DNA from: Bradyrhizobiaceae bacterium PARB1
GTDB lineage: Bacteria; Pseudomonadota; Alphaproteobacteria; Rhizobiales; Xanthobacteraceae
NCBI GenBank assembly: GCA_002256345.1
Contig: NKIY01000003.1
Location: 186,001-250,000 of the forward strand
Length of the DNA stretch: 64,000 bases
Reading direction: 5' to 3'
In this document: positions 1-27,881 of the stretch, in pieces
How the letters are laid out: the number at the start of each line of letters is the position of its first letter
How positions within the stretch are numbered: the first letter of the stretch is position 1
Made by a program: the position numbers and the translations under genes
The notes under the pieces: model-generated
Told to the model about the DNA's origin: nothing
What the model saw: only the letters and a program-made list of their open reading frames with translations
Databases searched by the model: none

Positions 1-247
1 GCTCCAGTTCGGGCAGCGTGACCGGAATGGTGTCGAGGAAGATCTTGCCGTCATTGGAGACGGTGATCGCCTTCGTGGTCGGCGTCGCGAGGCTCGGAGC
101 GGCGGAGGCCTTGGGCAGATTGACTTTCTGCCCTTGCACCGTCGCCGTCGTCATCACGATGAAGATGATCAGCAGCACGTAGGCGAGGTCCAACATCGGC
201 GTGATGTTGATATCGTCATACGGCTTGTTCTTGGCCTGGAGCTGCAT
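1..247 (-). CDS. exbD: Biopolymer transport protein ExbD/TolR family, partial (C-terminus beyond window)
   Basis: The first 82 residues of an ExbD/TolR protein, which forms the proton-driven inner-membrane motor with ExbB and energises TonB. The visible part has a short cytoplasmic start (MQLQAKNKPYDDINITPMLD), one membrane helix (about residues 21-37, with the family's conserved Asp at its start in TPMLD) and the beginning of the periplasmic domain. The ATG lies 5 nt after the stop of the ExbB-like gene, so the two are clearly one operon. The gene runs off the left edge, so its end and the next gene cannot be seen; a TpsA exoprotein gene could lie further on, but that is a guess. Confidence 0.9.
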   Translation of the reverse strand, partial: MQLQAKNKPYDDINITPMLDLAYVLLIIFIVMTTATVQGQKVNLPKASAAPSLATPTTKAITVSNDGKIFLDTIPVTLPELE

Positions 248-252
248 CGTTG

Positions 253-2244
253 TTACTCAGCAGCCTGGCGATGGTCGGCGACCGGCTCGTTGGCATAGAA
301 TTCGGCCATCTTGGTCACGAACTCGTCGATGAAGACCTGCATGTCGGAGGTCAGTTCGCCGATACGCGTCACCAGATAGTTGTAGGCGAACAGCGCAGGG
401 ATAGCGACGAACAGGCCGGCGATGGTGGCGACGAGCGCCGCGGCGATACCCGGTGCGATGGCGTTGACGTTGACGTCGCCGCTTTCCGCGATGGCCGCGA
501 AGGTGATCATGACGCCGACCACGGTGCCGAGCAGGCCGAGGAACGGACCACCCGAGATCGAGATCGTCAGCACCACCATCAACTTGTTGAGACGCTGGCT
601 CTCCTTGACGAACATGCTGTCGAGCGCTGCGCGGATCGCCGAGATCGAAGCGCCGTTCAGGCGGATCATGTCGCTATTGGCGAAGCGGTGGCTGATCTGC
701 TCGGCACCGACGTGATAGATGCGGTACAGCGAGGACGCACGGACCACCTGCGCTTCTTCTTCGTCGAGCTTGCTCCCGAGCACAGCGGCATTCTCGTCGG
801 CTTCGCCACGATCGAGCGCGGTCAGATTGTCGGCCAGCTGGCGGAAGCTCTTCATGAAGCGGTCGTTGGCCTTGGCCTGACGCTTCATATAGCTGACGCG
901 GTCCCAGGTGACGATCCAGCTGGCGACAGCCATCACCATCAGCAAGGCGATCACGATCCAGCCGTCGATGGTCACTGCCTTCAGGATGATGGCGAAGTGG
1001 CCCGACATCCAGCTGGCGGTCTCTTCATCGTTGCTGAAGGCGATCAGCTTGGCGGGCTCAGTGCCCTGCTCGACCGCAGCGAATTTAATGAAGCCCGGCG
1101 AACGCGCGATCTTGGAGATCTGCAGTTCGTCGATGTCGCCGACGAAACCGGCCATCGCTGCGGCTGCAACAGGGGCAACAGCGGCTTCAGCGGCGGGGGC
1201 GGTTCCGTCGGCGGCAGGAGCTGCGGCATCGGCCGCAGGCGCTGCGGGGGCAGCGGCCGCGGGCGGCGGGGCATCGCCGCCCAGGCGCGCCACACCGGTC
1301 AAGGCAGGGAGCGAGGCATTCAGGGTCGCATAGGGCGCACCGTTCAGATAGACGGTGACGGTGCCGCTGGCGGCGACCACTGCCAGATGATTCCAGGAGT
1401 TGGCGGCAACGGGCGCACCTGCACCGCTGCGCTGCGTGCCGGCGGCATTGCTCACTTCGACGAAGGGCGAGCCGTTGTCGAGACCGATCACCACGCCATT
1501 GGCACCGTCGCGGCGGCTGAACAGCGCCGAATTCGGCACAGCGGCGGCCGGCTTGATCCAGGTCGAGAACGTGAACGGCGCACTGTCAGCCATGCCGAGC
1601 GATGGCGAAGCAGGAAGCGTGACGATGTTACGACCATCGAGACGCAGACCGGTGCCGATCAGCGAGCCGTCAGCCGGCTGCCCCACGCTCTGCGCATTGT
1701 TGGCCCAGACCGAGGCGTCGATCGCCGGCGTGCCGCGCTCGTTGAAGTGATACACCAGCGCGGTGTCGGCATCATAGGTGCCCTTGGAGTCGTTGATCGC
1801 CGCGGCCTTCTTGTTGCCGTAGTAGATCCAGAAATCCGACTTGGCGCCCGGCGCCACATTCGGCACCGAGACCCAGACGAGTGCCTCGCCGAGCAGGGAA
1901 TCCCACTTTTCGACGTGGTGCTTCAGCGGAGTCTTGTCGTCGGTGGCGACGAAGCGCAGATCGCTGCCGTCATCCTTGGCCAGGCTGAAGCGGAAGTTGC
2001 CGGAATGCAGACGCACCAGTACCGGCACGGTGCCGATCGGATCGGTGATGTTGGCGCCGGTGGCGCTCGCATCGATATTGATCTTCTTGCGCAGCTGCCA
2101 CTCGTCGTTCCACCAGGCATTCGCCGTGGACGGAAACAGCGTCATCGCCGCGGCGAAACCGAGCGCGAGGCCCGCCGCCGCATTCTTCATTCGCCGGCGC
2201 AGGCTCGAGACGCCCATGCTCATGTGACCGTTCCCCATCGTCAT
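253..2244 (-). CDS. DUF2341-LamG ectodomain fused to a MotA/TolQ/ExbB proton channel
   Basis: A 663-residue fusion. Residues 20-43 look like a signal peptide ending TANA. About 44-165 match a DUF2341 domain (WWNDEWQLRKKI start, DFWIYYGN), and about 170-325 plus 366-391 a LamG/concanavalin-like domain (FTFSTWIKP, FVGDIDELQIS). A 40-residue Ala/Pro stretch (326-365) is inserted before the last LamG strand. A membrane helix at about 416-446 leads into a MotA/TolQ/ExbB domain to the C-terminus, with the conserved GLLGTVVGVMITF segment. Its start overlaps the stop of the TpsB gene by one base (TGATG), which supports coupling and this start codon. Inferred role: ExbB-like motor subunit carrying a periplasmic lectin-like domain. 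The channel assignment is firm; the ligand of the ectodomain is unknown. Confidence 0.88.
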   Translation of the reverse strand: MTMGNGHMSMGVSSLRRRMKNAAAGLALGFAAAMTLFPSTANAWWNDEWQLRKKINIDASATGANITDPIGTVPVLVRLHSGNFRFSLAKDDGSDLRFVATDDKTPLKHHVEKWDSLLGEALVWVSVPNVAPGAKSDFWIYYGNKKAAAINDSKGTYDADTALVYHFNERGTPAIDASVWANNAQSVGQPADGSLIGTGLRLDGRNIVTLPASPSLGMADSAPFTFSTWIKPAAAVPNSALFSRRDGANGVVIGLDNGSPFVEVSNAAGTQRSGAGAPVAANSWNHLAVVAASGTVTVYLNGAPYATLNASLPALTGVARLGGDAPPPAAAAPAAPAADAAAPAADGTAPAAEAAVAPVAAAAMAGFVGDIDELQISKIARSPGFIKFAAVEQGTEPAKLIAFSNDEETASWMSGHFAIILKAVTIDGWIVIALLMVMAVASWIVTWDRVSYMKRQAKANDRFMKSFRQLADNLTALDRGEADENAAVLGSKLDEEEAQVVRASSLYRIYHVGAEQISHRFANSDMIRLNGASISAIRAALDSMFVKESQRLNKLMVVLTISISGGPFLGLLGTVVGVMITFAAIAESGDVNVNAIAPGIAAALVATIAGLFVAIPALFAYNYLVTRIGELTSDMQVFIDEFVTKMAEFYANEPVADHRQAAE

Positions 2245-4007
2245 CAGAATTCACCCCAGATACGGAAGTTCACGCGCCCTGTATTGGCATGCGTGTAAGC
2301 TTGAGTAATCATCGGCACCGAATAGGCGATCGAGCCATTGAAGCCTTCGAAGACCTTGAAACGAGTGCCAGCGCCGTAGCTCCAGACGTCGAAACGCGTC
2401 TGCTGCTCGGGCAGCGGCCGCTGCACGCGGACATGACCGGCATCGACAAAACCGAAGAAGCGCCATTCGTTGAAAGTCGTGAAACGCGCGTTGCCTTGCC
2501 CGGTCTCGTCCTTCATCTCCTTCTGCAGCATGCTGCCGACATCGGGAGAGCGGATTTCGATATTGCCGACGATACCGTCATCGCCCAGCACTTCGGATTC
2601 GAGATAACCGCGAACCGTATCCATACCGCCGATGCTGAACTGCTCGCTCGACACTTGCGGACCGTCGGAGACCTGTGCAGCCACCTTGGTCCAGAACTGG
2701 AAGCCTTCCGGCAGCTCATGCGTATGAGCGAGATCGACATTCAGATGCGTGAAGCTGCCAGATGCCCATGCGCGCTTGTTGTCGAATTCGCGCCAGTCGT
2801 CACCCACCGGACGCATGGCCGCAGTGATCGACGCATTGAGCTGGGTCAGCGACTTCTCGCCCTGGAATGTCGCGCCATAGCTTGCGACCGCTGGGAAATA
2901 GGTGATCGGCGTGCCGAAACCGTTTCCACTTAGATCCCGCATCGTCTGATCGAAGTGCTTGTAGTCCATACCGGCAGACAGGGTATGGAAGAAGTTCTCA
3001 CGCGCCGGCAGCGTCATGACGGCACGCGCACCGATGATCTGGCCCGGACCGACCACGTTCATGCCGCCGACAGTGGCAACGTCGCTGCTCGACTTCACGC
3101 CGTAGACCAGCGCGCTCAGCCAATCGATATCCTCAAAACGCGCCATATACGAAGCCGAGAAAACTTCGGCATCCTTCGAGTTTTCCGGCGCAACCTGATA
3201 GGTGAAGCTGAACGAATGGCCGAGCTGCCACAGATTGTCGTAACGCGCCGTACCGATCAGCCGCGACCCAGACGTATTCGGCGAGCGACGATTGTTGAGT
3301 TCCACGCTACCGTGGAAAGGCGCCTTGTCTTCGATATTCAGATCGACGTCGACGGTACCCGGCGTCACACCCGCGCGCAGCGCCGGCGTCACGCGGCGAT
3401 CCGGCCACTGATTGAGACTGACGATATCCTTCGTCACCGCATTGAAGTTCGGCACGGTGCCTGGCTTCAACGACGCCGCCTTGTCCTTGACCTTGTCGAT
3501 ATCGAAGTAGCGCGAATTCTTCACGCGCAACTGACCGACCTTCATTTCGGTGACCTTCAGGATCACACGTCCGGTAAGCGCGTTCTGCTGCGGCACCGAC
3601 ACACTGACGGTCTGAAAACCCTTGTCGTGATAAGCCTTTTCGAGCGCCGCACGCGCCTTCTCGACATCGTCCGCCGTACGATTGGGACCAAGGAACGGAT
3701 AGATCGCCTCCTCGACGTCGATCTGCGGCAGCTTGTCGGCGCCCTGCACTGCAAAGTCATCGATATCGAAACGCTGCAGCGGCGCGGCGGGCGCAGCCGG
3801 AGCAGCCTCGGCCGCGGGCTTGTTACCAGCCGCCTTCGTATCCGAAGATTTCGCCTCAGCCTGCTGGCTTGGCGCCGCCTGGACCGATTGAGAAGCACCA
3901 ACGAGAGCGCCGATGCTTGCGAGCATCAGGACTGCCGGAGCCGAGGATTGCAAAAACCGCCACTTCGGCAGTTTCGCGCCGACATCGTCTCGAAGAAAAA
4001 GAAGCAT
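2244..4007 (-). CDS. ShlB/FhaC/HecB family outer-membrane transporter (TpsB) of two-partner secretion
   Basis: A 587-residue outer-membrane protein. A signal peptide runs to about residue 45 (SVQA-AP), followed by a low-complexity Ala/Pro/Lys linker, POTRA domain(s) at about 78-220 (FDIDDFAVQGADKLP, then VILKVTEMKVGQLRVKNSRYF), and a 16-strand-type barrel with the C-terminal surface-antigen region (VRGYLESEVLGDDG). Length fits the TpsB family. Such proteins export a large filamentous TpsA partner across the outer membrane. No TpsA gene is visible, and the left edge is close. It is preceded by FecR and a FecI-type sigma factor and followed by ExbB- and ExbD-like genes, which is unusual because TpsB proteins are not thought to need TonB energy. 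Confidence 0.9.
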   Translation of the reverse strand: MLLFLRDDVGAKLPKWRFLQSSAPAVLMLASIGALVGASQSVQAAPSQQAEAKSSDTKAAGNKPAAEAAPAAPAAPLQRFDIDDFAVQGADKLPQIDVEEAIYPFLGPNRTADDVEKARAALEKAYHDKGFQTVSVSVPQQNALTGRVILKVTEMKVGQLRVKNSRYFDIDKVKDKAASLKPGTVPNFNAVTKDIVSLNQWPDRRVTPALRAGVTPGTVDVDLNIEDKAPFHGSVELNNRRSPNTSGSRLIGTARYDNLWQLGHSFSFTYQVAPENSKDAEVFSASYMARFEDIDWLSALVYGVKSSSDVATVGGMNVVGPGQIIGARAVMTLPARENFFHTLSAGMDYKHFDQTMRDLSGNGFGTPITYFPAVASYGATFQGEKSLTQLNASITAAMRPVGDDWREFDNKRAWASGSFTHLNVDLAHTHELPEGFQFWTKVAAQVSDGPQVSSEQFSIGGMDTVRGYLESEVLGDDGIVGNIEIRSPDVGSMLQKEMKDETGQGNARFTTFNEWRFFGFVDAGHVRVQRPLPEQQTRFDVWSYGAGTRFKVFEGFNGSIAYSVPMITQAYTHANTGRVNFRIWGEF

Positions 4008-4136
4008 GCACCAAGCCCATAAGAGGGCACACCGAGAGCGAGCCGCGCGCTCGCAATCAGGTCCCTATGTCCAGAAGACGTTTGGGCGACTATCAACCCG
4101 CAAAAGAAAATTAAGAAAAACGTGCGGACCGAATCA

Positions 4137-4166
4137 CGTGGCACGAGAGGTGACAAAAATGCCACG
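4137..4166. promoter_or_regulatory. 7-bp inverted repeat upstream of the TpsB gene
   Basis: A perfect inverted repeat, CGTGGCA, 16 bases, TGCCACG, lies in the 204-nt gap between the FecR and TpsB genes, about 130 nt upstream of the TpsB start. It could be a regulator site or part of a promoter. No clear -35/-10 pair could be assigned, so the function is inference. Confidence 0.3.
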
Positions 4167-4211
4167 CAGCCGGCGACATCTGCGCCGGAGCCGAATGATA
4201 TCAACGGATTA

Positions 4212-5207
4212 TCAGCTGAGCAGAACGACGCCGCCGGGCAATGCCCGCACCTTCACCGCATAAAGCTGGCGGACCTGCGCGACGAAATCGTCGAGCTGGT
4301 CGGTATGAAAGGTGCCGTTGACCAGGCGCTGACCGAGGTCGGAATTGGTCACGACGATCTTGCCCGGACGATAGCGATTGATCTCGCTGACCACGGTGGC
4401 AAGTGGCTTGTCCTTGAAAATCAGCAGCTTTTCCCGCCACGCCGAGAGAGTCTCGGAATCGGCCACGGGCACCGGCTTGCCGAGCGGCTCTGAAGCCGAA
4501 TACGCAATCTGTTGCCCGCTGGTCAGCTCGATACTGCGCCCGCCATGGCTCACGATGATCGAACCTTGAATGCAGACTGCCAGCACGACACCGTCGATAC
4601 AGCGGATATTCACTTCACCGGCCGAAGAGGCAATCTGGCCGTCTGCAGCAATCACCACCAACGGCTCAGACACCGACCGCCGTGCACTGATCGCAGCTTC
4701 TCCCGAGATCAACTCGATACGCGGATTGATGCCGCTGCCACGAACCGCCACGCTGGTCTGTGTATTGAGCTTCAGCGATACATTGTCCGCCAGGGCGACA
4801 TCGAGCTGCTCGCCCTTCGCCGTACGATAGTCCGCGGACATTTCCGCGAGCGAGGGCCACAGCTCCAATGGTGGCTTCACCACCATATAACCCGCAACCG
4901 AAGCAGCCATCGCTCCGCCGATCAATGCGCGCCGCGTGACGGCACGACGAGTAACGAAAGGCCGCACCTTTCGGCGCTCGAGCTCCGCCCCCATAGTGCC
5001 CAGATCGCGATACAGGCGCGCCGCCTGCCTGAACGCCGCCTCATGCGCAGGACTGAGCGCGCGCCAGCGCTGCAATTCGTCGGCATCGCCGACCGTCGCC
5101 CGCCCCGAGCGCAACAGTGCAACCCAGTCGATCGCCCGATCGAGCAAGCCGTTATCGTCACCCGACTCAGTCACCTGGGCACAACCGACTGAGCTCGATC
5201 GATGCAA
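4212..5207 (-). CDS. fecR: FecR family anti-sigma/sigma-regulator protein
   Basis: A 331-residue FecR-type regulator that passes a periplasmic signal to its ECF sigma factor. Visible in order: an N-terminal cytoplasmic DUF4880 segment (about residues 20-68, with AIDWVALLRSG and SPAHEAAFRQA), a single membrane helix (about 93-110) preceded by twin arginines (RRALIGG), a FecR beta-rich periplasmic domain (about 120-220), and a C-terminal DUF4974/STN-like domain (about 250-330, IFKDKPLATVVSEINRY). The RR motif fits reports that FecR proteins can be Tat substrates. The sigma gene lies 268 nt upstream on the same strand, and the TpsB gene is downstream. Confidence 0.93.
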   Translation of the reverse strand: MHRSSSVGCAQVTESGDDNGLLDRAIDWVALLRSGRATVGDADELQRWRALSPAHEAAFRQAARLYRDLGTMGAELERRKVRPFVTRRAVTRRALIGGAMAASVAGYMVVKPPLELWPSLAEMSADYRTAKGEQLDVALADNVSLKLNTQTSVAVRGSGINPRIELISGEAAISARRSVSEPLVVIAADGQIASSAGEVNIRCIDGVVLAVCIQGSIIVSHGGRSIELTSGQQIAYSASEPLGKPVPVADSETLSAWREKLLIFKDKPLATVVSEINRYRPGKIVVTNSDLGQRLVNGTFHTDQLDDFVAQVRQLYAVKVRALPGGVVLLS

Positions 5208-5475
5208 CAGTCGTCCCCACAGGGACGATAAGAAACCGGACCGGATAAATGATGCGGATCATTGATGTCGCGGAGCTTCTGATCTGACGAATCGAAATGG
5301 ATGACAGGACCTTCTCGATTACTAGACGGTTGAGACCACGCTATCCCGCAGCCGAATCGTCATTTAATGGCATAGATTTTTGCGAGCCGATAGTTTTGGG
5401 CCGGCACCAGTAACAACTAGACAAGAAAAAATTGGCCGAAATTCGCGCAAGCGATAGCCGGAAAATTCTGGAGCA

Positions 5476-6015
5476 TTAACGCGGACGAGGTCCACCGGTC
5501 CGTCTGATCAAGTCACGGTCGAGCCGCTGCGCGCAATGCTTCAGCGCATTGCGCAGATCGATTTCGACCGTTCTGATGCTTACGCCCAACTGTGCTGCGA
5601 TCTCGTGATCGGGCATTTTATTGACCACTGCGGACACGAAGACATGACGCGCGCGCGCAGGAAGCTCGGCTAGCGCGCGATCAAGGGCCTCAATATCCTG
5701 ACGCCCTTCCATCACCGCGACTGCATCCGGCGTATCATCCGGAATGTCGAGCAAGGCATCGACGGCATCGAGACTGAGATGGCGCTGCTCGACGCGGCGA
5801 CGGTCGGTCGCAACATTCAGCGCGATGCGGAACAAATAGTCTTTCGGGCTATTGACTGTGGGGGCATTCGACATCCGTTCGACACGCAAAAAAGTTTCCT
5901 GCAATGCGTCGCCGGCCAGCTCCGAAGAGCCGAGCTTTCGCGTCAAACGCTTGAAAAGGCCGGTGTAGTCGGCCGCCAAGACGTCGCGCAACGTTGTCCG
6001 ATCTACCCCACTCAA
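5476..6015 (-). CDS. FecI-like ECF RNA polymerase sigma factor
   Basis: A 179-residue ECF sigma factor. Region 2 lies at about residues 18-76 (DALQETFLRVER, DYLFRIALNVATDRRR) and region 4 at about 110-165 (LPARARHVFVSAVVNKMPDHEIA, with the helix-turn-helix VSIRTVEIDLRNAL). No extra C-terminal domain is present. It sits between TonB and FecR genes, so it most likely directs transcription of the downstream TpsB/ExbB/ExbD genes when FecR is triggered. The 268-nt gap before fecR contains no gene and could hold the fecR promoter. Confidence 0.93.
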   Translation of the reverse strand: MSGVDRTTLRDVLAADYTGLFKRLTRKLGSSELAGDALQETFLRVERMSNAPTVNSPKDYLFRIALNVATDRRRVEQRHLSLDAVDALLDIPDDTPDAVAVMEGRQDIEALDRALAELPARARHVFVSAVVNKMPDHEIAAQLGVSIRTVEIDLRNALKHCAQRLDRDLIRRTGGPRPR

Positions 6016-6132
6016 CGGTTATCGCCTTTATACACTAACCGGTCACTACCTCAGCAGGCAGGTTGTTACCGTCCGCTCATGACAAATTGATTACGGAACT
6101 GCGATCCATTTCACCGGGCGGCACGGATTTGT

Positions 6133-6840
6133 TCACCGTGCGTCAAATGCCACAGGCAGCAACACGGTGATGAGGTCGGGCATGTCAGCAGGAATACGTG
6201 GCAGCGGTTGTGCACGCCGAATCGTTTCCATCGCCTCCCGATCGAGCAGCGCGCGCCCCGAACTCGACTTCACATCGAGCCGAACCAATGTACCGTCGCG
6301 GCGCATCGCAAATAGCACGAGAACTTTGCCACTTGCGCCGGGATCGCGCTGATAGCGTTCGATATGAGTTTGTAACTGCTGCTGAAAGCGTGACGCTACT
6401 CCCGCAGAAACCGCCTGACGCTGGCCGCCTCCTGGCGGTCTCTGCATAGGAACCGAGGCCGGCTGCGGCCGCACCAACGGTTGCGGTGGCGCGATCTCCT
6501 GCTCGACCGGCGCCGTGCTCTGCTCCGAGATCCTCGCTTCCGTCTGGAAATCGACGATAGGCGGATTTGGTTGCACGGACGCTTGCTTGACCTCTGTCGC
6601 CGGAGCAGGCGATGCAATCAGTTCAACCTGAATCGTCGAGTGTCCCTGCCGCGCTGTCGGACCGACCGGCATTTGATGCAGCCAATAGACGCCCGCCGCG
6701 ACCAGTACCGGCACGAGCACCGCGCTGCCGACGAACCAGCGCCATGTGCCCGAGGTGGAGTCCCCATACAGATCGCCATCGAGACCCGCCCCTGCAGCGC
6801 CGGCTCCCTTCCAGGTCGTCGGTGAGCGCTTGCCCTCCAT
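6133..6840 (-). CDS. tonB: TonB family energy transducer
   Basis: A 235-residue TonB-like protein. A short cytoplasmic start is followed by one membrane helix (about residues 36-52, FVGSAVLVPVLVAAGVYWL), a Pro/Gln-rich periplasmic spacer (QPLVRPQPASVPMQRPPGGG) and a C-terminal TonB fold (about 150-235, with GTLVRLDVKSSSGRALLDREA and AQPLPRIPAD). The ATG at 6840 is chosen because it lies 2 nt after the stop of the STN gene; longer starts would overlap that gene heavily. It is likely the dedicated partner of the ExbB/ExbD pair downstream. Confidence 0.85.
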   Translation of the reverse strand: MEGKRSPTTWKGAGAAGAGLDGDLYGDSTSGTWRWFVGSAVLVPVLVAAGVYWLHQMPVGPTARQGHSTIQVELIASPAPATEVKQASVQPNPPIVDFQTEARISEQSTAPVEQEIAPPQPLVRPQPASVPMQRPPGGGQRQAVSAGVASRFQQQLQTHIERYQRDPGASGKVLVLFAMRRDGTLVRLDVKSSSGRALLDREAMETIRRAQPLPRIPADMPDLITVLLPVAFDAR

Positions 6841-6842
6841 CG

Positions 6843-7679
6843 CTAACGCACCGTGATCATGACCATGACGGGCTGCGGTGTATTGGCAGGCGGCGCCTGG
6901 CTCACCTGCAGGCCGTCGAGTACCCGCGCGATGGTCTCGTCGCGCTCCTGATCGCCGGACGACCGGAACAATTCGGTCTTGCGCACGGTGCGCGGATTGT
7001 CGATCCACAGCTTGATGCCCGCACTATAAGCACCGCTGCGCGTCTTGGCTTCCTTGCGCAGCGCGTGCTGGATGTCGGACTGAATGATGCCGCTATAGGC
7101 CCGCAATTGTGATGGATCGCTGCTCGGCCGCTGCCTGCGCACCACCAGGGTGTCGAGCGTAAGATCGACCTGGCCACCGAACACCGCTTCCGGCGGCGCA
7201 TCGGGATCGGCAGACGCCGGCACGAGCGTAATGGAATTGGAGCGCGTATAGCGGATCACCAGATCCGTATCCGCAAGCAACATGCGCAAGGCAGTATCGC
7301 GCGTATATTCGCCCTCGACCGGCACAGATAGCCGATCACCGGCCGCCCCGCTTTCGTAGAGCAGTTGCATGCCGGTGATCTTGCTATAGGCCTGCAGCGC
7401 CGCGGCCAGCGGTTGGCCCGGAATCTGGAATTTGATCGGCACATATTGGCGCGGATCGTCGCCCGCCGCGATCGCCGAAACCATGGCGCCGCCTGCAAGG
7501 ACAACTACCGCAACCAGAAGCGCCCGAATGTGGGATGCAGAGCGCAGCCGGCCAAGGCCCCATGCCCGCACATCGAAGGCCCATCCCGAATTCAGATCAT
7601 CCAAACGCTGACTGAGACGCATCTTGTGGATTTCGATTGAACCAACCAAACGCAACATCACGATTGCGCGATGCAGCAT
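6843..7679 (-). CDS. Periplasmic STN-domain protein with TonB-like C-terminus (signalling component lacking a receptor barrel)
   Basis: A 278-residue protein (shorter if Met8 or Met20 is the start). A hydrophobic segment at about residues 51-72 is a signal anchor or signal peptide. Residues about 80-153 form an STN (secretin/TonB short N-terminal) domain (FQIPGQPLAAALQAYSKITGMQLLY, DTALRMLLADTDL). The remainder, about 190-278, resembles a TonB C-terminal fold (GIIQSDIQHALRKEAKTRSG, IKLWIDNPRTVRKTELF). STN domains in TonB receptors signal to FecR. Here the domain stands alone, with no 22-strand barrel, and starts the tonB, sigma, fecR series. This resembles VreA of Pseudomonas aeruginosa PUMA3, from memory. 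Confidence 0.85.
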   Translation of the reverse strand: MLHRAIVMLRLVGSIEIHKMRLSQRLDDLNSGWAFDVRAWGLGRLRSASHIRALLVAVVVLAGGAMVSAIAAGDDPRQYVPIKFQIPGQPLAAALQAYSKITGMQLLYESGAAGDRLSVPVEGEYTRDTALRMLLADTDLVIRYTRSNSITLVPASADPDAPPEAVFGGQVDLTLDTLVVRRQRPSSDPSQLRAYSGIIQSDIQHALRKEAKTRSGAYSAGIKLWIDNPRTVRKTELFRSSGDQERDETIARVLDGLQVSQAPPANTPQPVMVMITVR

Positions 7680-15310: not shown

Positions 15311-16198
15311 TCACCCCAACAATCTCGCTTGATCCTTCTTCGCCTGTTCCGCAACAAAATCCAGCACCGCCCGGATCTGCGGCGCATCCACCAGATCGGG
15401 ATGAGACAACAACCAGATCTCGGTGGAGCTGCGCAATTTTTCGGGCAGCACGCGCACCAGCGATTTGTCGGCGTCGCCGGAAATGCACATCAACGGCGCA
15501 AAGCCGAGCCCGGCGCGCGCCGCCGCCATCAGGTCGGTATGCGACGAACACTGCAGCACGCGGCGCGAATGGCGCGAGACGCTGTCGAACCACTCCATCA
15601 GAGGCCCCTCGCCGACGAGGCCGATGGAGCTGTGGCCTTCCCATTCCTCGCGCGTTTTCGGCAAGCCGTGCGCGCGTGCATAGGTCTTCGATGCGAACGC
15701 GCCCACGCCCAGGCGTCCCACCTTGCGGCCAACCAGGTTTTCGTTACCCGGCCCATATAACCGCAAGACGATGTCGGCCTCGCGCCGCCGCACCGAGGCC
15801 GGCCAGCCATCGACGCGAATCTCCAGCAAGATGTCGGGATAGCGGCGATTGAACTCGGCAATCGCCCCCATCAGCCACGGGCCGGACAGCACCTCGGTGA
15901 TCGACAGCCTGACGGTGCCGACAGGCTTCTCGCGGATTTCGGCGATGACGGATTCGATCCGCGTCGCCTCAAGCCGCATGCTTTCGAGTTGCAGGCTCAG
16001 CCGTTCGCCGGCGGGCGTCAGCGAATAACCTTCGAGCGAACGCGCGATCAACCGGACGCCGGTGATCGCTTCAAGCTCGGCGAGCCGCCGGCTTACCGTC
16101 TGTGCGCTGACCTTGAGCAGCGCACCGGCACGCGTGAGGCTCGCCTCGCCGGCGATCACGGAAAAGGTGCGCAGCAGATCCCAGTCCAGTCCCTGCAT
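15311..16198 (-). CDS. LysR family transcriptional regulator
   Basis: A 295-residue LysR regulator. The N-terminal winged helix-turn-helix is at about residues 5-62 (TFSVIAGEASLTRAGALLKVSAQTVSRRLAELE), then a linker helix and an effector domain (about 92-290: VGTVRLSITEVLSGPWLMGAI and later). It lies upstream of the two flavin oxidoreductase genes on the same strand and just downstream of the RND permease. Regulation of the oxidoreductase pair is plausible but not shown. Confidence 0.92.
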   Translation of the reverse strand: MQGLDWDLLRTFSVIAGEASLTRAGALLKVSAQTVSRRLAELEAITGVRLIARSLEGYSLTPAGERLSLQLESMRLEATRIESVIAEIREKPVGTVRLSITEVLSGPWLMGAIAEFNRRYPDILLEIRVDGWPASVRRREADIVLRLYGPGNENLVGRKVGRLGVGAFASKTYARAHGLPKTREEWEGHSSIGLVGEGPLMEWFDSVSRHSRRVLQCSSHTDLMAAARAGLGFAPLMCISGDADKSLVRVLPEKLRSSTEIWLLSHPDLVDAPQIRAVLDFVAEQAKKDQARLLG

Positions 16199-27005: not shown

Positions 27006-27881
27006 ATGTCCAATCTTCTCGATCTCCTGATCGCAGGTCTCGCTACCGGCGCCATTTACGCCATCGTCGCGGTCGGCTTCACGCTGCTGTGGCAGACCTC
27101 GCAGACCATCAATTTCGCCCAAGGCGAATTCGTCATGCTGCCAGCCTTCATCATGCTCGGCGTCATGCATGTCGGCGCGCCGTTCTGGGTCGCAATCCTC
27201 GTCGGCATCGCGCTCTCCATGTTGCTGCTCGGCCTCGGCTTCAAGATGCTGCTGGTCGATCCGATGCTGCGCCACGGCGTGCTGCCGCTCGCCATCGCCA
27301 CCATGGCGCTGGCCATCGGCATCAAGGAGTCAGCAAAACAGTTCTGGAGCGCGGAAGCCTCGCCCTTCCCCTCTATCGTCCCTGCCGGCGACATTTTCAT
27401 CCTCGGCCGCGCCGTGGCGCTGCAGAGCCTCGGCGTCCTCGCCGTCGCTATCATTGCGGTCACGTTGCTGACGCTGCTGCTGAACCGCACCTCCATCGGC
27501 CACCAGATGCAGGCCGCAGCACAGAACCCGACCGTCGCGCGCATCGTCGGTGTTCCCGTCGAGCGCATGATCCTGCTCACCTTCCTGATCAACGCCTTCC
27601 TCGTGGCGCTGGCCTCGCTGCTGATCACCCCGATCTACCTGGCAAAATTCTCGAATGGTGAAGTGCTCGGCCAGGCCGCCTTCATCGCCGCCATTGTCGG
27701 CGGCTTCAACCAGATCCGCGGCGCCATCGCCGGCGGTCTCCTCATCGGCGTCGTCGACAATCTCGCCGCCGCCTATGTGTCGACGCAATATCGCGCCGCC
27801 GTGCCGCTGGTGCTGCTCATCGCCATCATCCTGTTCCGTCCGCAGGGCCTGCTCGGCCGTCCCGAGGAGCGCACCGTATGA
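27006..27881 (+). CDS. ABC transporter permease, LivH-like
   Basis: A 291-residue inner-membrane permease with the LivH pattern (MSNLLDLLIAGLATGAIYA; TINFAQGEFVMLPAF; eight or so helices; PIYLAKFSNGEVLGQAAFIAA). Its stop overlaps the LivM-type gene by four bases, so the two are coupled. It should dimerise with the downstream permease to form the membrane channel of the importer. Confidence 0.92.
   Translation: MSNLLDLLIAGLATGAIYAIVAVGFTLLWQTSQTINFAQGEFVMLPAFIMLGVMHVGAPFWVAILVGIALSMLLLGLGFKMLLVDPMLRHGVLPLAIATMALAIGIKESAKQFWSAEASPFPSIVPAGDIFILGRAVALQSLGVLAVAIIAVTLLTLLLNRTSIGHQMQAAAQNPTVARIVGVPVERMILLTFLINAFLVALASLLITPIYLAKFSNGEVLGQAAFIAAIVGGFNQIRGAIAGGLLIGVVDNLAAAYVSTQYRAAVPLVLLIAIILFRPQGLLGRPEERTV

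Follow-up and report, generated by a model that had tools for sequence, protein, structure and literature searches.

What is a TonB motor doing beside an exporter of the two-partner secretion (TPS) type, in a gene cluster that holds no TonB-dependent receptor? This question is raised by a 64,000-nucleotide stretch of the genome of Bradyrhizobiaceae bacterium PARB1 (the window; G000:C1:186001-250000, where G000 denotes this genome), whose positions 1-7679 carry on the minus strand part of a cluster that we call the hub. Open reading frames and Pfam searches gave the order STN protein, TonB, extracytoplasmic function (ECF) sigma factor, FecR, TpsB, a DUF2341-LamG-ExbB fusion and ExbD on that one strand, as a preliminary description of this DNA had read it. 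The same description had reported no receptor barrel in the cluster, and none (plug plus barrel) was found among the hub frames scanned with Pfam, the rest of the genome not having been surveyed for receptors. The ExbB, ExbD and TonB genes stand together as a complete motor gene set, and the hub TpsB has both parts of a type Vb exporter, a POTRA domain and a ShlB barrel. We propose that the hub belongs to a branch of TPS coupled to a TonB motor, in which one TpsB and the motor serve many giant TpsA proteins of the DUF3739 type, with TonB gripping a C-terminal tag on these proteins and the TonB-like domain of STN proteins reading it. We regard this reading as a whole as about equally likely to be right or wrong. 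There is good inferential support for its first part, in which the motor acts on this secretion system, while the grip on the tag and the reason for it are put forward as a hypothesis.

The tie between motor and cargo was most apparent when we compared genomes. In a sample of 149 genomes from the same family, 17 contained the hub TpsB (E<1e-180; next best match, 8e-16), and these 17 also contained the ExbB fusion at E<1e-110, with one further genome matching at 5e-21. Matches to the TpsA tail (E<=1e-6) were confined to exactly the same 17 genomes, and some TPS-domain match was present in 63 of the 149. Each of the 17 had one hub TpsB and between 1 and 19 TpsA tail matches, fragments included. 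A sample of 397 genomes drawn from the phylum gave the same picture: DUF3739 TpsA occurred in 19 genomes and the ExbB fusion (E<=1e-45) in the identical 19, with both halves of the fusion present in 18 and the ExbB half alone, at a contig start, in G372. Hub-type TpsB at E<1e-110 was found in 18 of these 19 genomes and in none of the other 378.

Gene order was conserved as well. A comparison of neighborhoods among relatives, as the preliminary description had suggested, placed TpsB, ExbB fusion, ExbD, a second TonB (TonB2), a Porin_5 protein and a coiled-coil gene in this order in 17/17 family hubs, some of which have the gene for a 162-residue protein between ExbD and TonB2. Across the phylum, TpsB was followed by the motor and then by Porin_5 in 13 of 19 genomes, our own included. 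The motor lay directly behind tpsA, with TpsB apart from it, in three others (G445, G167, and G517), 14 to 18 kb from tpsA in G515, and on another contig in G372 and G361. Such an arrangement could also mean that the motor drives the neighboring Porin_5 protein, or some other outer-membrane task, and is tied to the TPS genes by a shared regulon alone. Porin_5 stands behind TonB2 in every one of the 17 family hubs and, with the sole exception of G361, in the phylum genomes as well (18 of 19); its tie may be equally strict, and in Pseudomonas aeruginosa the corresponding block is jointly controlled by phosphate and a sigma factor (PMC4971064). Co-regulation alone, however, predicts neither that DUF3739 TpsA and the fusion should occur in the identical 19 of 397 genomes nor that the motor should lie behind tpsA in three of them, and we consider this explanation unlikely.

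If the motor works on TPS, the genome should hold cargoes for it. The preliminary description would have been undone by a genome lacking any TpsA partner, and had advised extending the sequence leftward in search of one. The cluster does continue to the left, with TonB2, Porin_5 and further genes, but no TPS-domain match lies on the hub contig, C1; TpsA proteins with a TPS domain are encoded on other contigs, and none adjoins the hub. Profile searches returned 19 TPS-domain matches in this genome against four ShlB-type TpsB. Among 18 stretches that we fetched were 15 complete frames for giant TpsA proteins of the DUF3739 type, plus fragments; the complete frames span 3,748 to 4,368 amino acids if each begins at its earliest potential start codon, and their 63,122 codons together make up 2.7% of the genome. 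Fifteen is a lower bound, as the cassettes L014, L017 and L025 lie at contig ends and pieces of TpsA occur at the ends of contigs C4, C9, C13 and C23. The giant TpsA of L034 (4094 aa), the sole one scanned with Pfam, has a TPS domain and DUF3739 (PF12545) at residues 3887-3997. All 15 complete giants have STN, ECF sigma factor and FecR genes directly upstream, an arrangement that we refer to as a cassette. When 17 STN loci outside the window were fetched, 16 had all three genes; the cassettes at L036 and L042 fell outside the STN profile matches and were found when the surroundings of TpsA were read. The remaining locus, L026 (G000:C24, ~14.2-14.7 kb), encodes a solitary STN protein of 164 amino acids, and the fetched stretch contains no relative of the sigma factor or of FecR.

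The hub TpsB (2244..4007, minus strand), which Pfam resolves into POTRA_2 and a ShlB barrel behind an Ala/Pro-rich N-terminal linker, is the only TpsB in the genome of the type that matches the giant TpsA. Two of the others adjoin TpsA of their own (L028 and L029). Within 30 kb of the last (L045, G000:C22:797893-798795) no TPS match was found, although the giant TpsA encoded at L044 ends about 23 kb from it. Two further features of the cargo set may be recorded here. Between the signal peptide and the TPS domain, at alignment columns ~80-130, the giant TpsA of L030-L044 share a conserved Ala/Gln-rich stretch with the consensus QDSLARAARAVQ. In addition, eight genomes without a hub (G077, G126, G137, G138, G061, G031, G098, and G063) hold a separate group of frames of 5,635 to 6,573 amino acids with weak TPS matches.

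Where might a TonB protein touch this system? The preliminary description had suggested that the motor acts on TpsB. The general link between TonB and TPS that it inferred is supported by the exact co-occurrence, but contact on TpsB did not hold up: the N-termini of 17 hub TpsB proteins showed no conserved box, just a linker rich in Ala and Pro and of low conservation. We therefore moved the proposed contact to TpsA. Near the C-terminus of all 15 giants is an invariant run of 13 residues, PSVIIVEVLGYGG, which we call the tag. Over the 4,228 alignment columns in which half or more of the 15 rows have a residue, it is the longest invariant run (runner-up, 8 residues), and it lies after DUF3739, inside a Thr/Gln/Ser-rich linker and ahead of a charged tail. 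At the DNA level the tag exists in 15 distinct versions. Relatives retrieved by a TpsA-tail search kept it in all 30 loci read out of 71 places, 22 recognized by the strict pattern and the other 8 by visual inspection. A looser pattern (ISVQVLGFG, ISVEVLGFG, and the like), written after the loci had been seen, fitted 28 of the 30 DUF3739 loci read, out of 36 places, and 16 of 15,000 shuffled tails; it fitted neither the two L028 TpsA nor the L029 TpsA. Another set consisted of the best 80 of 298 loci and was biased by that choice and by the use of the tag itself as one of two search patterns; 71 of its members conformed to the strict pattern and 9 did not.

We also modeled the tail. AlphaFold2, given the last 330 residues of the L034 TpsA and a 30-row alignment, predicted a solenoid with high confidence as far as residue ~230, followed by a helix and a low-confidence stretch in which residues 246-267 and 272-297 fell under 50 on the predicted local distance difference test (pLDDT); the blocks holding the tag (267-279) averaged 47 and 42. 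The tag stretch is thus predicted to be disordered in the one TpsA modeled. A Foldseek search with the TpsA C-terminus returned nothing at E<=0.001. Two other accounts of the tag were considered and set aside. That it caps the beta-solenoid is unsupported, as the L034 model places it in the low-confidence stretch; that it was kept merely through recent duplication is likewise unsupported, given that its codons vary and that relatives retain it. Apart from these, L038 contains at 15514-15849 (G000:C9 ~27,013-27,348), between two full cassettes, a 111-residue orphan frame resembling a TpsA C-terminus, perhaps a remnant or a spare tail.

The tag might instead be shaped to the TpsB pore and serve there as an anchor or as a stop on exit, in the manner of the C-terminal anchor of HMW1 or HxuA, in which case TonB would never touch it. 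C-terminal anchors expected to remain in the periplasm are known (PMC5422565), and the tag is retained in genomes that showed no sensing cassette in the vicinity of TpsB. Yet the known anchor holds a disulfide (PMC5422565), and a Cys is present in the last 100 residues of none of the 15 giant TpsA tails of this genome; nor would an anchor account for so strict a tie to a TonB motor. We treat an anchoring role as a possible but doubtful alternative.

The proposed reading of the tag by STN proteins draws on their C-terminal halves. The hub STN protein (6843..7679, minus strand), which resembles VreA, is composed of an STN domain, a disordered linker containing the box-like stretch LDTLVV, and a TonB-like C-terminal domain. 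Pfam matched STN at E 4e-5, under its cut-off, and TonB_2 weakly at E 6e-4. AlphaFold2 placed STN at residues ~82-154 and a second domain at ~189-277, with the linker at 165-183 below pLDDT 50. With this model as the query, Foldseek found the signaling domains of FpvA, PupB and FecA (E 6e-7 to 1e-4). The same search returned the C-terminal domains of TolA, HasB and TonB (E 2e-3 to 9e-3), interspersed with secretin domains; no aligned ranges accompanied the hits. A hidden Markov model (HMM) built from 19 motor TonB sequences, none of them an STN protein, matched the C-terminal half of 17/17 STN proteins of this genome at E 1e-11 to 1e-22 (set of 17), covering residues 181-278 of the hub protein; as this was the one TonB model used, the matches do not show a special kinship to the motor TonB. 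Two hallmarks of a PUMA3-type system are present, namely an STN protein that has no barrel and ends in a TonB/TolA-like domain, and adjoining genes for an ECF sigma factor and a FecR-type anti-sigma factor. Exactly two Cys residues occur in the last 110 residues of 16/16 cassette STN proteins (L011-L025, L027) and none in those of the hub protein; they possibly form a disulfide.

These proteins also bear on a third explanation, that the hub is a standard PUMA3 regulon in which export has no mechanical component and TonB serves signaling alone, as in other cell-surface signaling systems. Its attraction lies in the linker of the hub STN protein. A box-like stretch (LDTLVV or LGTLRV) was present in 11 of 12 hub STN proteins and fitted 8 of 6,000 shuffles, by a pattern that was drawn up once the sequences had been seen and does not pick up L325, and the gene for a private TonB, TonB1, adjoins all 12 hub STN genes. 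In our window TonB1 occupies 6133..6840 on the minus strand (TonB_C, E 2e-9); the frame is open from 6133 to 7008, and we chose the ATG at 6840 as the probable start (235 aa). Against signaling alone, the same pattern found a linker box in none of 16 cassette STN proteins, and the motor with TonB2 is also present where no cassette is seen near TpsB. No STN-sigma-FecR cassette was seen in the 20 kb around TpsB in G445, G167, G517 or G515, the remainder of these genomes not having been searched, and because of these four genomes the cassette would appear to be the accessory and the motor the constant part, as far as 20-kb stretches rather than a genome-wide search can suggest. Of the explanations considered here, a purely signaling role for TonB seems to us the least probable.

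How, then, could a motor-coupled TPS branch operate? We infer that one hub TpsB exports the whole set of giant DUF3739 TpsA encoded elsewhere in the genome, and that a proton-driven motor, assembled from the dedicated ExbB fusion, ExbD and TonB, works on this system instead of on a TonB-dependent receptor. Contact is most likely at the C-terminal tag (PSVIIVEVLGYGG and its variants), which on this view would hang in the periplasm once the remainder of TpsA has crossed TpsB. TonB might grip it by strand pairing, as it does a TonB box, and might do so to finish, hold or release TpsA, the direction of the grip being part of the conjecture. The same tail could also be sensed by the TonB-like domain of each cassette STN protein, with FecR relaying the signal to the sigma factor. 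A bolder form of the proposal, that the proton-motive force drives a type V branch by TonB pulling on the tag, with the STN TonB domains reading occupancy so that at least 15 cargoes sharing one TpsB each report their own export state to their own sigma factor, is in our view more tentative and rather less likely than not to prove correct.

Several points weigh against the motor-coupled reading. Two identical sets of 19 would arise by chance with a probability of ~1e-32 if the genomes were independent; they are related by ancestry, so this figure overstates the case. For each genome our searches scored a limited set of candidates, and the absences hold at that sensitivity. Five genomes without DUF3739 have a related TpsB (E 2.5e-63 to 2.6e-39), the draft genome G372 has no ShlB match and its motor genes lie on a 3.8-kb contig, and the motor and TpsB of G361 are on separate contigs. 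Within our own genome, the additional TpsB on C22 leaves the exclusivity of the hub TpsB not proven. As to the tag, its likeness to a TonB box is our own judgment, made by eye against boxes such as that of BtuB (DTLVVTA). The tag has diverged in L208 and L218, the two DUF3739 loci that fail the looser pattern, it is kept in G445, G167, G517 and G515 despite the lack of a cassette in the 20 kb around their TpsB, and the box-like sequences SFVVTATD and SFVVTTAD occur near the ends of two TpsA, both at L028, whose adjoining TpsB is of another type. Finally, published work holds that type V export runs without any energy source and points to its reconstitution with none supplied (PMC5422565), and VreA of P. 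aeruginosa is dispensable for activation of its sigma factor, contrary to a sensing role there (PMC4971064, PMC7035377).

The layout of the hub is of a known kind. The likeness to PUMA3 noted in the preliminary description proved closer than it had claimed. In PUMA3 of P. aeruginosa (vreAIR, pdtA/pdtB), VreA also combines STN with a TolA/TonB-like domain (PMC2729926) and is accompanied by an ECF sigma factor and a FecR-type anti-sigma factor, and the tabulated order that follows is pdtB, exbB2, exbD2, tonB4, PA0696 (a putative porin), PA0697, PA0698 (YbjN) and PA0699 (PpiC) (PMC7035377). The sigma factor VreI drives pdtA and the phdA-pdtB-exbB2D2-tonB4 operon (PMC4971064). Our hub differs in the TonB1 gene after the STN gene, the box-like stretch in the STN linker, the swapped PpiC and YbjN, and the at least 15 dispersed TpsA cassettes. 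This comparison was made with published descriptions of the P. aeruginosa proteins. A split between cargo cassettes and a single hub is known too: Rhodopseudomonas palustris and a Janthinobacterium sp. have four PUMA3 clusters each, three with tpsA and one with tpsB-exbBD (PMC2729926). The cargo set is far larger here, and the passages available from PMC2729926 describe neither motor-cargo co-occurrence nor a tag.

Systems further afield share some elements. TPS systems of the HMW1/HxuA type likewise have a TpsA C-terminus expected to remain periplasmic (PMC5422565), whereas the 15 tails here lack Cys and the tag, motor and sensor are additional. Appendages of DUF2341 on MotA/ExbB relatives have been described, with their function given as unknown (PMC12505986). 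Cell-surface signaling systems such as FecIRA and FpvA have STN, FecR, an ECF sigma factor and a TonB motor in common with the hub, but the hub has no receptor barrel or plug and joins STN to a TonB-like domain. What is new is the strict tie between DUF3739 TpsA and the motor with the fused ExbB, the C-terminal tag, and the arrangement of one hub with many cargoes. The preliminary description had mentioned neither the many cargoes and the TonB-like domain of the STN protein nor TonB2 and the box-like tag on TpsA. In the literature that we searched, outside which most subscription journals lie, we found no statement of a TonB-TpsA contact, of the tag or of the co-occurrence, and no mention of DUF3739.

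Type V secretion is taught as free of energy input. Among the sampled genomes we found no case of the proposed branch lacking a dedicated ExbB-type motor, and its cargo has a conserved candidate handle; a branch of this kind makes the rule directly testable. If the proposal is true, it would provide a client to test for exbB2-exbD2-tonB4 of P. aeruginosa, which have been called still uncharacterized (PMC7035377), as well as a candidate ligand for VreA-type proteins, and it would explain how many separately regulated giant surface proteins share one exporter.

The remaining hub genes complete the locus. This sigma factor may control the tpsB operon here as VreI does in P. aeruginosa; as a candidate promoter element for it, an A/T-tract motif in 16 upstream stretches reached a log-likelihood of 95.1, compared to 44.3-50.5 in eight mononucleotide shuffles, a weak control for a motif that is itself weak. 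Pfam identifies the product of 5476..6015 as an ECF sigma factor resembling VreI and FecI, and that of 4212..5207 as a FecR-type anti-sigma factor resembling VreR, with DUF4880 and FecR; both genes are on the minus strand. The ExbB fusion (253..2244, minus strand) begins with what looks by eye like a signal peptide, followed by DUF2341, LamG and MotA_ExbB. The ExbD gene (Pfam ExbD, E 9e-30) starts at 247 and leaves the window on the minus strand after the first 82 of its 134 codons (1..247), the remainder lying at G000:C1:185843-186000 with the stop at G000:C1:185843. To the left of the window it is followed by the gene for the 162-residue protein, which gave no Pfam match, and then by those for TonB2, Porin_5, the coiled-coil protein, PpiC, YbjN, SLT and a trypsin-like protease.

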